From positions 1 through 23,100 of the IMG/VR virus record IMGVR_UViG_3300022074_000393: a DNA stretch of 23,100 nt; one strand, written 5' to 3'. Source of the DNA: a virus. A program made the position numbers and the translations under genes. The notes beneath the pieces were generated by a model. It was not told where the DNA came from, made no database searches, and saw only the letters and a list, made by a program, of their open reading frames with translations. This document shows, in pieces, positions 2,337 to 14,846 of the stretch; positions within the stretch are counted from its first letter, which is position 1, and every line of letters begins with the position of its first letter.

Positions 2337-2512
2337 TGGCAATAGAATCAGCAAAATATTACAAAGACCATATTACAAACACAAATGTATCAATTATATT
2401 TGTAGACAATGGTGTAACAAAATCTGTTGGTATAAATGCAACAGACAACATAGACTACCAAGCTATACAAGAATGGGTAAAAGCAGGTAACACAATAGAG
2501 GAAGCAGACTAA
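2336..2512 (+). CDS. Small fibre-locus protein (58 aa)
   Basis: A short gene sitting exactly between two fibre genes, with TAATG overlaps at both ends. This makes it very unlikely to be a chance frame. The product begins MAIESAKYYKDH and ends YQAIQEWVKAGNTIEEAD. The C-terminal part resembles a short motif (YxAIxEWxxxGNTIxEAD) recurring in small proteins encoded among fibre genes of marine phages. There is no signal peptide or membrane segment. It may be a minor virion component or a partner of the 371-residue fibre just upstream. The function is unknown and the family recognition is from memory of the pattern, not a search. Confidence 0.72.
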   Translation: MAIESAKYYKDHITNTNVSIIFVDNGVTKSVGINATDNIDYQAIQEWVKAGNTIEEAD

Positions 2513-3150
2513 TGGCATTAGTAATTAAAGGAAGTAGCTCAGGACAAGTAACAGTTGATGTTCCTGCAAGTGCAGGGACGAACACTCTAACTTTACCTGC
2601 GACAACTGGCACAGTATTAGATACCAATAGTGCTTTAGCATCTAGCAAATTAAGTGGAGCTTTACCTGCTATAGATGGTTCTGCATTGACAGGTGTTGGT
2701 GGTGGAATAACACAAGCAGATATATGGAGATTGACTACAAATGTAACATCAGATACAGGTGGTGTTAGTAATTTTGAAAGAGCAGATGATACAGTAGCTA
2801 CTAAAGTAGGAGATGGTGTTAATTTTTCAACTCCTTATTTTACATTTAATGCTACAGGCATTTATTTAATTCAATCTATGGTTTTATTTGCACCTACAAA
2901 CGATAGTGATAATGCAATATGGATTACTAATTATCGTAATGATTCATCAGGTGCAGCAGACACATTAGCCGAGTGTCAAGGTTCAGATGGAAACACATCA
3001 AATTTTTCACAATGTATTATCGATGTAACAAATACAAGCAACGACCAAATTTATTTTCAAGTCATATCATTAGCGTCAGGTGGTAATGTAACAGGTAATA
3101 CTAATGCAAATAATACTTGTGTCAGTTTTATCAGATTAGGAGATACATAA
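2512..3150 (+). CDS. Tail fibre protein with C1q-like tip domain
   Basis: A 212-residue protein. The N-terminal 65 residues (LVIKGSSSGQVTVDVPASAG, TLTLPATTGTVLD, GSALTGVGGG) are the standard stem module of many marine phage fibres. From about residue 68 (ADIWRL) onward a beta-rich domain of 140 residues follows, with strands such as YFTFNATGIYLIQSMVLFAP and CIIDVTNTSNDQIYFQVISL and a closing CVSFIRLGD. This arrangement resembles the C1q/TNF-like trimeric jelly roll often found at fibre tips. TAATG overlaps join it to the small genes before and after it. It is probably a structural adhesin; the fold assignment is an inference from strand pattern. Confidence 0.75.
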   Translation: MALVIKGSSSGQVTVDVPASAGTNTLTLPATTGTVLDTNSALASSKLSGALPAIDGSALTGVGGGITQADIWRLTTNVTSDTGGVSNFERADDTVATKVGDGVNFSTPYFTFNATGIYLIQSMVLFAPTNDSDNAIWITNYRNDSSGAADTLAECQGSDGNTSNFSQCIIDVTNTSNDQIYFQVISLASGGNVTGNTNANNTCVSFIRLGDT

Positions 3151-11700: not shown

Positions 11701-12195
11701 TTCTTACCTGCTGCTGCACAACCCGGTGGTCCTGCTGTAAGTGCAATAAACAAACTTCTTTTAGGCAGAGATTCTTTTACGGGACAATCATTTAACGAAA
11801 TGGGTATGGATGCTTCAGAAATTTTTGGCTCAAGAATATCAGCACTTGCTAAAGATTTTGTACCTAATGTTCCTAACCCACTTGTCAGAACATTTGCAGG
11901 AGATAAAATTACTAGAGCATTTAATGATGATTACCAAACATTATCTGACCCAGTAAGCAAAACAGAATCTATAGCAAGTGTGTTTGGGTTGTCCGTAAAT
12001 ACAGCAGACATTGATAGATTAACTACTTTAAAATCAAAAGAATTACAGAGTATAAATTCAGATTTTTCTAAAGCTATAAAAAAAATAAACAATGAAAGGA
12101 TGAAAGGAATAATAGACTTTGATGAATACACAGAAGAGTATAATAATTTAAGGGAAAGATTTACTAAAGAAGTTAAAGGGCTTACAAAAGAATGA
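8701..12195 (+). CDS. Very large virion protein, probable internal DNA-ejection protein (1164 aa)
   Basis: The largest gene in the window. The N-terminal region has Gly/Ala-rich hydrophobic segments that could enter a membrane (about residues 100-130, ALGAYMGGVVADPFGW; 165-195, YQAGLGAVGGGAITGVIGIA; 255-275, PLAAGGAGLGLYTSASF). These alternate with long charged helices. Around residues 690-715 there is a conserved-looking block (LQSFWKKTKTVYNPAVHMNN), and around 815-840 WYQLEDKIFRYSLYKTRKQ. This block architecture, of a WKxxKTxxNPAVHxxN core with a helical C-terminus, occurs in giant proteins of marine podoviruses, by position comparable to T7 gp16. No transglycosylase (lysozyme-like) motif is seen. 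It starts at TAATG and overlaps the holin-like gene by ATGA. Confidence 0.6.
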   Translation: MATDLSKIFEEELIPKSTSNVDMTEIFNQELAPSEYSTINEDKVGTVREDVPGINSRDEAMKFAASMGFSDTYRGIKQFIGFGEQEMKADQNKLNNIFANKEYGRAALGAYMGGVVADPFGWVIPVAKAKSVSSLVKQGIAYGAGFGAVGYTDEAAFGQDTSMWEKKLYQAGLGAVGGGAITGVIGIAGKKALGFDEPTAALKATDDVEARRINKLNEQELNKEPLKDGTMDEKLTLKESYRKKVGQPLFDAMTKNPLAAGGAGLGLYTSASFLEDGNDSTNYLYNTALTAMATFAGLKAGKSLQGTEMGNKLLYHINSEIHMSPEVYSQWNKMKGSIQGHQGAIANLHNDLSGLTKEENKLAYQLFSGDLSEDGLNKIVQNHAEMGQETIDKLLKLKDKKIGVFTKLGQDMRDAGLLSDDVFKTNLDSYLKRSYQKVLETRGEKDATKLVSTLGKIRGDSIRSRGFVQKNVPKERMPLIVERLRNDREQDFKIKEDYEKRFPDGDDVPATVPNEKKGKLINRITEKDDPDYNPDLPELDQMSNYGVLVTKNEDGTYDILSQLTKQERRELGEIEDAALSIARTSQDLNTTLGLGRFYKGIEQDGISKGYVFNTTDLVGKDKQFENVNDMLENGYKVIPNTKIKNESGDNIPEFGALGGKVVPEDVYKDIKLLTEVTNNKYRKGLWNKWFKLQSFWKKTKTVYNPAVHMNNLVANFSMFYMANGSWKVFAQARKEFKEILKYERGEIPKEKLPKDLRDLYDEGGLSADMVTNEMRQGGNFNRRMDELLDSYKINGNEFMSDALDTGAKQLRKAGRIYGSADKWASDWYQLEDKIFRYSLYKTRKQQINPKTGKLYTNEEAANDAIKYFIDYDIKTPFINGIRNTAVPFLSYSYRVVPLLLETAVVRPEKFAVLAALGYTANDIFTDVAGSNKFKQGQERKLMQDFRKKKMFDNPVVDMPYSNIRLPYNGVNGGAKYFDITRKLPGGDVFDMGGDTGGDAPFLPAAAQPGGPAVSAINKLLLGRDSFTGQSFNEMGMDASEIFGSRISALAKDFVPNVPNPLVRTFAGDKITRAFNDDYQTLSDPVSKTESIASVFGLSVNTADIDRLTTLKSKELQSINSDFSKAIKKINNERMKGIIDFDEYTEEYNNLRERFTKEVKGLTKE

Positions 12196-12626
12196 TACCG
12201 TTTGAAGTTATAACAATGCTTGGCTCTAGTCTATTTACTGGACTACTATCTATATGGTCACAGAAATCTAAAGATTCAGCAGACCAACAGAAGTATCTTA
12301 TGCAAAGAGCAGAGATAGAAAGAGCATCAGTTAATGACGCAAGAAAAGATAACAGTCAGTATCAATCTACGACAAGAAGATGGATGGCATTACTTGCAGT
12401 GTTTTTTATAGTATGCCTACCTAAACTAGCAGTATTCTTAGACCCATCAGTACAGGTACACTTAATGTATCTTGACCAAGTTAAAGAGGGATGGTGGATA
12501 TTTGGTAGCACACAAGAAGTAACAACATTTAAAGGTATCGGTGGAATAGTAATTACTACAGCAGATACACATTTTCTAGCAGCAATATCAGGATTCTATT
12601 TTGGTTCTGCTGCAACAAGGAGATAA
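12192..12626 (+). CDS. Membrane protein, holin candidate
   Basis: A 144-residue protein coupled to the giant virion gene by ATGA. It has a hydrophobic N-terminal helix (FEVITMLGSSLFTGLLSIW), a charged helical middle (residues 22-58, QKYLMQRAEIERASVNDARK), a second membrane helix (RWMALLAVFFIVCLPKLAVF) and a hydrophobic end (GIGGIVITTADTHFLAAIS then GFYFGSAATRR). A layout of helix, charged coil, helix, and final helix ending FYFG is seen in three-helix holins of the GTA/phage type. Holin function is inferred: no endolysin gene lies next to it, so the lysis role is not confirmed by context. Confidence 0.55.
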   Translation: MIPFEVITMLGSSLFTGLLSIWSQKSKDSADQQKYLMQRAEIERASVNDARKDNSQYQSTTRRWMALLAVFFIVCLPKLAVFLDPSVQVHLMYLDQVKEGWWIFGSTQEVTTFKGIGGIVITTADTHFLAAISGFYFGSAATRR

Positions 12627-12627
12627 C

Positions 12628-12876
12628 ATGGCTATAGAAAGAGCAGGTGAAAAATTTTCAGGATATAATAAACCAAAGAACTCACGCAAAGGTGGTAAAA
12701 AGTTTGCTGTATTAGCTAAAGAGGGAGACAAGATTAAGCTCATCAGATTTGGTGATGCTAACATGAAGATTAAAAAGAACATACCATCAAGACGTAAATC
12801 TTTTAGAGCAAGACACAAGTGTGATACTGCTAAATCTAAACTAACAGCTAGATATTGGAGCTGTAAAAAATGGTAA
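12628..12876 (+). CDS. Small basic protein, DUF5872-like
   Basis: An 82-residue strongly basic protein. The ATG at 12628, with an AAGGAGAT sequence just upstream, is preferred over an in-frame ATG at 12601 within the preceding gene. The protein reads YNKPKNSRKGGKKFAVLAKE, then GDKIKLIRFGDANMK, RRKSFRARHKCD and AKSKLTARYWSCKKW. The order KF-x-V-L-A-K-E-G-D-K-I-K-L-I-R-F-G and then RR-x-SF-x-ARH and a terminal YW-x-x-KKW is the signature of a small phage family of unknown role (DUF5872-like). Its charge would suit binding nucleic acid or virion interior, but that is speculation. Confidence 0.7.
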   Translation: MAIERAGEKFSGYNKPKNSRKGGKKFAVLAKEGDKIKLIRFGDANMKIKKNIPSRRKSFRARHKCDTAKSKLTARYWSCKKW

Positions 12877-13484
12877 GATTATATTTAGCTATAATTATAT
12901 TAAGCATTTTTATTTTAGGTTATGCAATAGAAGATGCTGTGTCAGATGTTACATCAAATGGTGCTACAACTAACAGTCAAACAAATACTTCAGGAAGTAA
13001 CACAGCTATATCCGGTGGGTACTCACAAGAAACCACAAATAATTATACGGGTGGTCAAACTAATACTACAACTAATTCAACAAGCAATAGCACTAACCAA
13101 GAGACTGCCGTTAATAGTGCAACAGCACCTGCTATGTCTGTGTATAGCCAACAGTCATGTGTCATTCCACTATCTATTGGCATGACCGTTATTGGCTTCA
13201 GCACAAGTCTTGGAACATATCATCATGATTTAAAATGTGAACAAAGACAAAGAGCCAAACTACTAAATGGATTAGGAATGAAAGTTGCAGCGATATCATT
13301 AATGTGTCAAGACAAAAACGTATGGAAAGCAATGATGGATGCAGGAACACCATGTCCTATAGATGGATTAATCGGTGAACAAGCTAAACAAAGATGGGAA
13401 GAACTAGGTAATGAAAAAGTTTTTGATACTGTTAATGCTACCTCTAGTGGCAAACGCAGACACTTCAGCAAATCTAATTACTAA
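12870..13484 (+). CDS. Exported Asn/Thr-rich protein with conserved Cys domain
   Basis: A 204-residue protein beginning 7 bases inside the end of the upstream gene. The first 18 residues (MVRLYLAIIILSIFILGYA) form a signal peptide or membrane anchor. Residues 27-80 are a low-complexity Asn/Thr/Ser/Gly spacer. Residues 87-175 form a compact domain with Cys97, Cys123, Cys146 and Cys162 (QQSCVIPLSIG, CEQRQRAKLLNGLGMKVAA, LMCQDKNVW, AGTPCPIDG), suggesting disulfides outside the cytoplasm. This domain type occurs in marine phage late regions; its function is unknown. The last 24 codons overlap the signal-peptide region of the next gene in another frame. Confidence 0.62.
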   Translation: MVRLYLAIIILSIFILGYAIEDAVSDVTSNGATTNSQTNTSGSNTAISGGYSQETTNNYTGGQTNTTTNSTSNSTNQETAVNSATAPAMSVYSQQSCVIPLSIGMTVIGFSTSLGTYHHDLKCEQRQRAKLLNGLGMKVAAISLMCQDKNVWKAMMDAGTPCPIDGLIGEQAKQRWEELGNEKVFDTVNATSSGKRRHFSKSNY

Positions 13485-14655
13485 CGGTACGTTTGATAAC
13501 GGCACTACAGGTTGGACTACATCAGGTGATGCACAAGTTATAGGTGATTGCTGTCCGGGTGGACATGACTTTGAGTTTGGAAACAGTGGGTCTATAGAAC
13601 AAACATTTGATTTAACATCGGATGATATTACTACTCAGATGCTAGACAACGGTATTACTCTCAACTCTACAGTAGAAGTACAAAATGGTGAGGGTGGTGT
13701 AGGTTCTTGGTGTCCTAACTGTGGCGATGCTGACAGTTTTAGAATAGACTTAACAATACTTGACAATAATAGTCAGGTATTAACTACGACTACACAAACA
13801 AGAACAGATGTAACAGGTATTAATGGTGTAGATTTTACTGACTCTATAACATATACAGGTACTGGTAGTTACTATGGCAACATATTTATTAAAGGCGAAG
13901 ACGCATCAACAGGAAGACTTGGTGGACCAAACGTAGATAACATATCAGTTACCATGGAATATGACCCTGTTGTTTTATCATTAGAACAAACACAACACAT
14001 ATCTGCTGTTGCTGAAATCGTAGAAGAAATATATATAGAAGAATTTGTTTACGAAGAACCTGTTATTGAAGAGATTATCTTTGAAGAACCTATGGTTGAA
14101 ATCATAGAAGAACCTGTTTTTATAGAAGAAGAATTTATTGAGGAGACTATTGTCTTAGCTCCTGCTATGATAGAACCTGAGATAATAGAAGAGGTTATAG
14201 AAGAACCGGCTATTGAAGAAGTGTTTGAAGAAATAGTAGAAGCACCTATTGAAGAAGAACTTGTGGAGGAAATTAATGAAACAGAAACTATCGAAGAAAC
14301 AGAAAGAGATACAGAAGTTAATGAAAGTAACGGAGATGTTATCGCAGAAGAAACCGAAGTCGATAACGAGAGTGGGAGTATTGAAACCGAACTAACAATA
14401 GAAGAAATATCTATTAAGGTAGCTGATAAAATTAAAACAATAGATGGTCAGCTCAAAGCTACACAAATGATAGTAGCTAAGGTTATGCAGAAACACAACA
14501 AGATATCAAGTTACTCAAAAGTAAACACAGATATATTTATACAACCAAATATAGTTGATATAGATATAGGTACATATACAAACAATACCTATGTAGATAT
14601 CAGAAACATTTATCCAAACCAAACATACGAGGACAGACTATGGACATCAAGGTAA
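13411..14655 (+). CDS. Secreted protein: signal peptide, beta domain, Glu/Pro-rich linker
   Basis: A 414-residue protein. A classical signal peptide occupies residues 1-16 (MKKFLILLMLPLVANA, cleavage before DTSA), which decides the start at 13411 even though it lies inside the previous gene. Residues 19-185 form a beta-rich domain opening with NLITNGTFDNGTTGW and closing with GGPNVDNISVTMEYD, the pattern of galactose-binding-like or carbohydrate-binding modules; Cys47, Cys48, Cys101 and Cys104 may pair. Residues about 203-330 are a Glu-dominated linker with repeated EEP steps (FVYEEPVIEEI, IIEEPVFIEEE, EVIEEPAIEEV). A helix (330-365) and a Tyr/Asn-rich tail follow. It is probably exported and binds a surface polymer; its function is unknown. 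Confidence 0.65.
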   Translation: MKKFLILLMLPLVANADTSANLITNGTFDNGTTGWTTSGDAQVIGDCCPGGHDFEFGNSGSIEQTFDLTSDDITTQMLDNGITLNSTVEVQNGEGGVGSWCPNCGDADSFRIDLTILDNNSQVLTTTTQTRTDVTGINGVDFTDSITYTGTGSYYGNIFIKGEDASTGRLGGPNVDNISVTMEYDPVVLSLEQTQHISAVAEIVEEIYIEEFVYEEPVIEEIIFEEPMVEIIEEPVFIEEEFIEETIVLAPAMIEPEIIEEVIEEPAIEEVFEEIVEAPIEEELVEEINETETIEETERDTEVNESNGDVIAEETEVDNESGSIETELTIEEISIKVADKIKTIDGQLKATQMIVAKVMQKHNKISSYSKVNTDIFIQPNIVDIDIGTYTNNTYVDIRNIYPNQTYEDRLWTSR

Positions 14656-14846
14656 TTGCAGGGATACTAGGAATAGCTATCAGTCTTGGTAGTCTATTCG
14701 TATTTCAAGGACAGTTAATACAGAGGGTTGAGGTGCTAGAATCTAAATCAGTACCTGATATTACCCCATTAGAAAAAGAATTATCTATACTCAAATCACA
14801 AGTAGAGGATTTAAAAGCTAGAAATAGTAATCCATTAATGAGATGA
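14640..14846 (+). CDS. Small membrane-anchored coiled-coil protein
   Basis: A 68-residue protein overlapping the end of the secreted-protein gene by 16 bases. Residues 4-24 (KVIAGILGIAISLGSLFVFQ) form one membrane helix, and residues 26-62 form a short coiled coil with leucines at regular spacing (QLIQRVEVLESK, LEKELSILKSQVEDLKARN). An N-terminal anchor plus periplasmic coiled coil is the shape of short inner-membrane spanins, but it is shorter than usual and has no overlapping outer-membrane lipoprotein gene, so spanin is only one option. It ends in an ATGA overlap with a 42-codon gene. Confidence 0.6.
   Translation: MDIKVIAGILGIAISLGSLFVFQGQLIQRVEVLESKSVPDITPLEKELSILKSQVEDLKARNSNPLMR

Follow-up and report, generated by a model that had tools for sequence, protein, structure and literature searches.

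Gene B of the window, by which we mean the whole 23.1 kb stretch of viral DNA analysed here (35% GC), belongs to a phage-specific module, A-B-C (Table 1), that is common to T7-like, T4-like and other Pelagibacter phages and to hundreds of marine viral contigs. On sequence comparison, proteins A and C and the C-terminal tail of B diverge together, and the N-terminal head of B, which comes in two families, changes independently of them. All three products carry predicted N-terminal export or membrane-anchor sequences.

Table 1. Features of the A-B-C module and of the genes just upstream of it (positions within the window).
Feature	Position	Strand	Description
Gene h	12192..12626	+	Membrane protein of holin-like topology, shortly upstream of the module; phrog_38283 (unknown function), without a firm family match
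Small basic protein	12601..12876	+	Between h and A; phrog_7595; absent from some loci
Gene A	12870..13484	+	N-terminal hydrophobic signal/anchor; conserved Asn/Ser/Thr-rich stretch (SGSNTAISGGY); C-terminal domain with four Cys
Gene B	13411..14655	+	414 aa; exported-type protein; jelly-roll head, followed by acidic linker and helical tail
B signal peptide	13411..13458	+	aa 1-16, MKKFLILLMLPLVANA followed by DT; predicted cleavage after VANA (sequence and crude test)
B head, alpha type (class 1)	13459..13980	+	aa 17-190; AF2, structure match, class assignment, Cys
B acidic linker	14014..14406	+	aa 202-332; net charge -52, without Cys, predicted disordered
B tail	14407..14655	+	aa 333-414; conserved helical C-terminal segment, diverging in step with A and C
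Gene C	14640..14846	+	N-terminal membrane segment, coiled coil and C-terminal NPL motif (alignment)

The open reading frame that a sequence-only reading of this DNA had picked out is present as described, and we regard gene B as a real gene because relatives occur in 10 IMG/VR contigs and in four annotated phage records, of which three are from cultured Pelagibacter phages. Relatives detected by tblastn were those of the Pelagibacter phages HTVC202P, Baldr and HTVC033P and of Votkovvirus S28-C10. The window's phage shows a distant LUZ24-type podovirus kinship through a virion structural protein (36% identity to Pseudomonas phage tf), and its host is probably SAR11, judging by the relatives of the module. 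Two of its tail-region proteins (409-924 and 2512-3150) match close relatives over their first 35-90 residues only; sharing limited to the N-terminal part is, in tail proteins, the usual sign of exchanged adhesin tips.

The linker of B had been read as some 125 residues rich in Glu and Pro. It comprises 131 residues and is indeed dominated by Glu (50 residues, 38%) with four EEP steps, but Pro accounts for just 5% (7 residues), so that 'Glu/Ile/Val-rich' (23 Ile, 13 Val) is the better description. The richest 120-residue Glu stretch reached up to 44% in B proteins compared with 18% in any other neighbouring ORF. Predicted disorder (AF2 pLDDT about 28) is consistent with the earlier idea of a flexible, acidic spacer that would be long enough to cross the periplasm. 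Three relatives with long Thr-rich heads have almost no Glu linker (L059 4679-6709; L094 4733-6826; L083 5013-6737), and the acidic linker is therefore typical of B rather than universal. The layout first proposed also lacked the conserved C-terminal helical tail that B possesses. AF2 gave a good model of the head, predicted the linker to be disordered and did poorly on the tail; because the models of both the tail and protein A were of low confidence, we make no claim about the fold of either.

The spacer had further been likened to that of TonB. B does resemble TonB in a charged stretch of about 100-280 residues expected to lie in the periplasm, and a freshwater relative is annotated tonB; this relative, in podophage ctXG6705 (L096 4851-6601), occurs in the same A-B-C order and has a similar architecture (signal peptide, Cys-rich head, Pro/Glu/Lys linker) with no detectable sequence similarity. 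B differs from TonB in its cleavable-type signal peptide in place of an anchor, its N-terminal head and its low Pro content. A TonB-like energy transducer was rejected, since neither Pfam nor NCBIfam gave a TonB C-terminal domain and there is no N-terminal membrane anchor, none being left if the signal peptide is cleaved. A second suggestion, cation binding, found no specific evidence.

Gene A precedes B in 79 of 97 loci and B precedes C in 64 of 68 (first 101 loci), the start of C overlapping the end of B by 16 bases in the window. The order A-B-C is kept in HTVC202P, HTVC033P, S28-C10 and Baldr, where a small additional gene separates A from B, and the module was also found in T4-like Mosig, HTVC115P and HTVC023P. 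A search for the same architecture in other marine phages, as had been proposed, thus recovered the same module in Pelagibacter phages and in hundreds of marine contigs, which contradicts the initial view that such a protein is unusual for a phage. Many of these contigs are fragments, and near-duplicates were collapsed ahead of counting. A profile search with A yielded at least 589 viral stretches against 11 bacterial contigs, and across 110 genomes of one bacterial family A was found in two and B in none; a host origin of the module was rejected on account of this near-absence from bacterial genomes.

Gene A corresponds to phrog_20531 (E=1.6e-10) and encodes exactly four Cys in all 89 homologues. 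Its C-terminal domain was modelled, at low confidence, as a beta hairpin plus helices (AF2), and a PDB fold search with protein A matched no known fold. Conserved across the A family is a hairpin at residues 97-123 (window 13158-13238), flanked by Cys and with hydrophobic residues in alternation, which is possibly membrane-inserting or possibly simply packed. These alternating residues prompted us to consider A as a beta-hairpin pore, a candidate rejected when structure searches gave no fold match; a peptidoglycan-binding role for the C-terminal 'DGxIG' motif found support neither in solved structures nor in Pfam. The Roseobacter phages CRP-207 and CRP-810 (L098 1834-3870 and L097 4779-6587) carry homologues of A without B or C; downstream of each come a gene for an unrelated protein, exported or helical, and a gene annotated as lysozyme.

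The window has 98% of its tail DNA, 94% of its linker and 100% of C in common with contig L009, and yet the two heads do not align past the first residues. Across 58 non-redundant loci, rank correlations were 0.66 between A and the tail, 0.51 between A and C and 0.54 between the tail and C, compared with 0.08, 0.05 and 0.15 between the head and the tail, A and C respectively. Three further scans led to a set of 338 A loci and 256 B proteins, in which the HMMs of the head classes formed two groups with mutual detection within each, i.e. alpha (classes 1 and 2) and beta (classes 3, 4 and 5). Heads could be assigned in 248 of the 256 proteins (97%; 146 alpha and 102 beta), and detection between groups at E<=1e-3 was limited to three weak class-1 hits (about 18 bits) to one beta model. 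A common ancestry of the two groups is possible, given the short N-terminal motif (T-x-N-L) found in both.

For 150 non-redundant loci, the A tree shows 29 changes of head type and the B-tail tree 25, of which at least 19 and 16, respectively, are forced by supported branches. Opposite head types were found in 22% of the pairs whose B tails are more than 90% identical. Among five pairs of near-identical phages whose contigs were compared, B was the sole gene below 70% identity in G147/G148 (21 shared genes, median identity 98%), G150/G151 (15 genes, 93%) and G142/G143 (10 genes, 90.5%), and one of two such genes in G145/G146 (28 genes, 98%) and G154/G155 (11 genes, 96%). Head type showed no link with tail-adhesin type in the few genomes compared, of which too few share adhesin tips to give more than low power; with that low power, the missing link might count against a simple 'mask my own receptor' model.

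The clean signal peptide first seen at the N-terminus of B recurs throughout its family, SP-like N-termini being present in 97% of 72 family members, as opposed to 17% of 424 neighbouring ORFs, and in 95% of A homologues, by a crude rule-based test (n-region/h-region/AxA) rather than SignalP; these N-termini support the export predicted earlier. All C proteins have an N-terminal hydrophobic segment. The four Cys of the window's B (C47, C48, C101 and C104) all lie in the head, Cys counts are even in most heads, and no linker plus tail among 150 B proteins contains a Cys, a pattern expected of exported proteins with disulfides.

A carbohydrate-binding-like beta domain with four Cys, another feature of the sequence-only reading, agrees with the AF2 model of the window's head, which has predicted strands from residue 36 to 184 (block pLDDT up to 95) and matches to folds of sugar-binding type. 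The top-ranking structures were the Fbs1 sugar-binding domain (1umh; VIA Z 18.3, 163 aligned, rmsd 2.9), the phage K2-2 tailspike, CBM61 (Z 14.3) and CBM16; the model also matches CBM22 and has the beta-sandwich jelly-roll of CBM_4_9. The head is thus alike in fold to CBM_4_9/galactose-binding-like modules and to Fbs1 (FBA) and differs from them in its low identity (15-17%) and in its Pfam score, B reaching 12.7 bits for CBM_4_9 (PF02018) against a gathering cut-off of 25.9. These comparisons cover one head type, the alpha head of the window. It is the modelled fold that suggests that the head may bind sugar. The vicinal pair C47-C48 (DCC; window 13549-13554) is kept in all 23 class-1 alpha heads and is absent from every other class, and the window's head has C101 and C104 besides. 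Disulfides between adjacent residues are rare in proteins. The ligand site of the class-1 head might lie near C47-C48.

The conserved parts of the module behave like a single machine, for which the head is a cartridge, and this fits a ligand that has two forms and differs between hosts. A surface or envelope glycan is for this reason a likelier ligand than a conserved target, and we accordingly favour, tentatively and at somewhat less than even chances, a late envelope-anchored lectin complex that modifies the host surface or occludes receptors, its head binding one of two host-surface ligands. C would anchor the complex in the inner membrane, the tail of B would bind C and/or A, the acidic stalk would cross or line the periplasm and the head would bind a host-envelope ligand of glycan type, one of two alternatives. 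Late in infection the complex would occlude or alter the infected cell's surface, which may keep out superinfecting phages and keep progeny off their own cell and debris. Of the three roles initially offered for the spacer protein, a change of the host surface during infection is the best, because the head behaves as a rapidly exchanged two-type cartridge. Against a surface role, the module is so widespread that it could serve a more basic late function.

A rival reading is lysis, by a spanin-like device that would rupture the envelope: C would sit in the inner membrane and B would span the periplasm, while the head would grip the outer envelope and A would help to break it. Like the two-component Rz/Rz1 spanins (features as in PMC6139136, where 91 of 677 phages had no spanin found), the A-B-C genes are overlapping late genes whose exported partners would cross the periplasm, and C has an i-spanin-like topology (N-terminal TM and coiled coil) and weakly matches the Rz-like profile phrog_739 (E=0.0063 in a relative, 0.24 in the window). 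Lytic enzymes are also close by, namely an endolysin near the module in HTVC023P (phrog_894, 4.8e-42), an amidase in HTVC033P (8.8e-55) and annotated lysozymes near the module or gene A in CRP-207, CRP-810 and ctXG6705, and in 47 of 86 loci a holin-like cluster occurs at most four genes upstream. That h is a holin is nevertheless unproven: its product has one or two hydrophobic segments and was present in 40 loci, and we rejected it as a holin after no Pfam hit and a weak hhalign match to a holin-like cluster (probability 19%). A-B-C moreover differs from Rz/Rz1 in its lectin-type head and in having no lipoprotein partner, the o-spanin lipobox pattern occurring in one of 72 B, three of 91 A and none of 58 C proteins. 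True spanins stand alongside it in the T4-like carrier surveyed, contig G145, which has its own i-spanin (phrog_739, 5.7e-14) and o-spanin lipoprotein (phrog_812, 7e-15), arguing against A-B-C as the spanin there. An exchanged, two-type lectin head has no obvious part in membrane fusion, and we find a spanin role rather unlikely and less likely than the surface role.

A further reading sees in the module a two-allotype recognition system, i.e. a secreted complex in which frequency-dependent selection would keep the alpha and beta heads in balance across unrelated phage families, for instance for excluding co-infecting phages or for matching one of two host envelope types. We hold this to be unlikely.

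B could also be an adhesin on infected cells that captures neighbouring host cells or particles and so raises the encounter rates of progeny, the 'sibling capture' put forward for pelagiphage curli genes (PMC7029224, PMC9599517). The head is of lectin type and its polymorphism could follow host surface types, and the curli secretion genes are likewise an exported envelope module, common to pelagimyophages and podophages. Infections with the curli-carrying phage Melnitz, however, showed no clumping (PMC9004378), and we judge this role quite improbable. A-B-C as curli itself (subunit or secretin; type VIII secretion) was rejected, as neither Pfam nor NCBIfam gave a CsgA/B/F/G hit for A, B or C. 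Least probable is a virion receptor-binding protein, as a metaviromic-island study read the annotation; the jelly-roll head is fold-related to tailspike and tail-fibre domains and shares the hypervariability of tail fibres described in excerpts of PMC3909814, but nearly all B and A proteins have predicted signal peptides, the Cys pattern is of disulfide type, the partner C appears membrane-anchored and in T4-like Mosig the module adjoins primase and not tail genes.

In excerpts of that study (Mizuno et al. 2014; PMC3909814), a 'putative carbohydrate binding domain containing protein' is the commonest identifiable gene in under-recruiting metaviromic islands (14 of 390 genes), and such genes are taken for host recognition or receptor binding. 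The B relative of Votkovvirus S28-C10 (MedDCM) bears exactly this name, from which we infer that the 14 island genes may belong to the B family. The hypervariability of 'carbohydrate binding' genes in marine phages was therefore already known from those excerpts; in them, and in a partial search of the wider literature, we found no mention of the A-B-C module, its export or the two-type exchange of its head, and the novelty of the module and of the two head families is provisional to that extent.

The swapping of heads between near-identical phages suggests that B acts at the host surface. Little is known about the surface interactions of SAR11 phages, which rank among the ocean's most abundant viruses. 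Here, a module is common to unrelated SAR11 phage families and its sole freely changing part is one two-state domain of lectin type. If true, this would help to account for the hypervariable genes described as 'carbohydrate binding' in marine viromes, and, should the ligand be a host glycan, SAR11 populations would be expected to contain two discrete envelope types to match the two head types.
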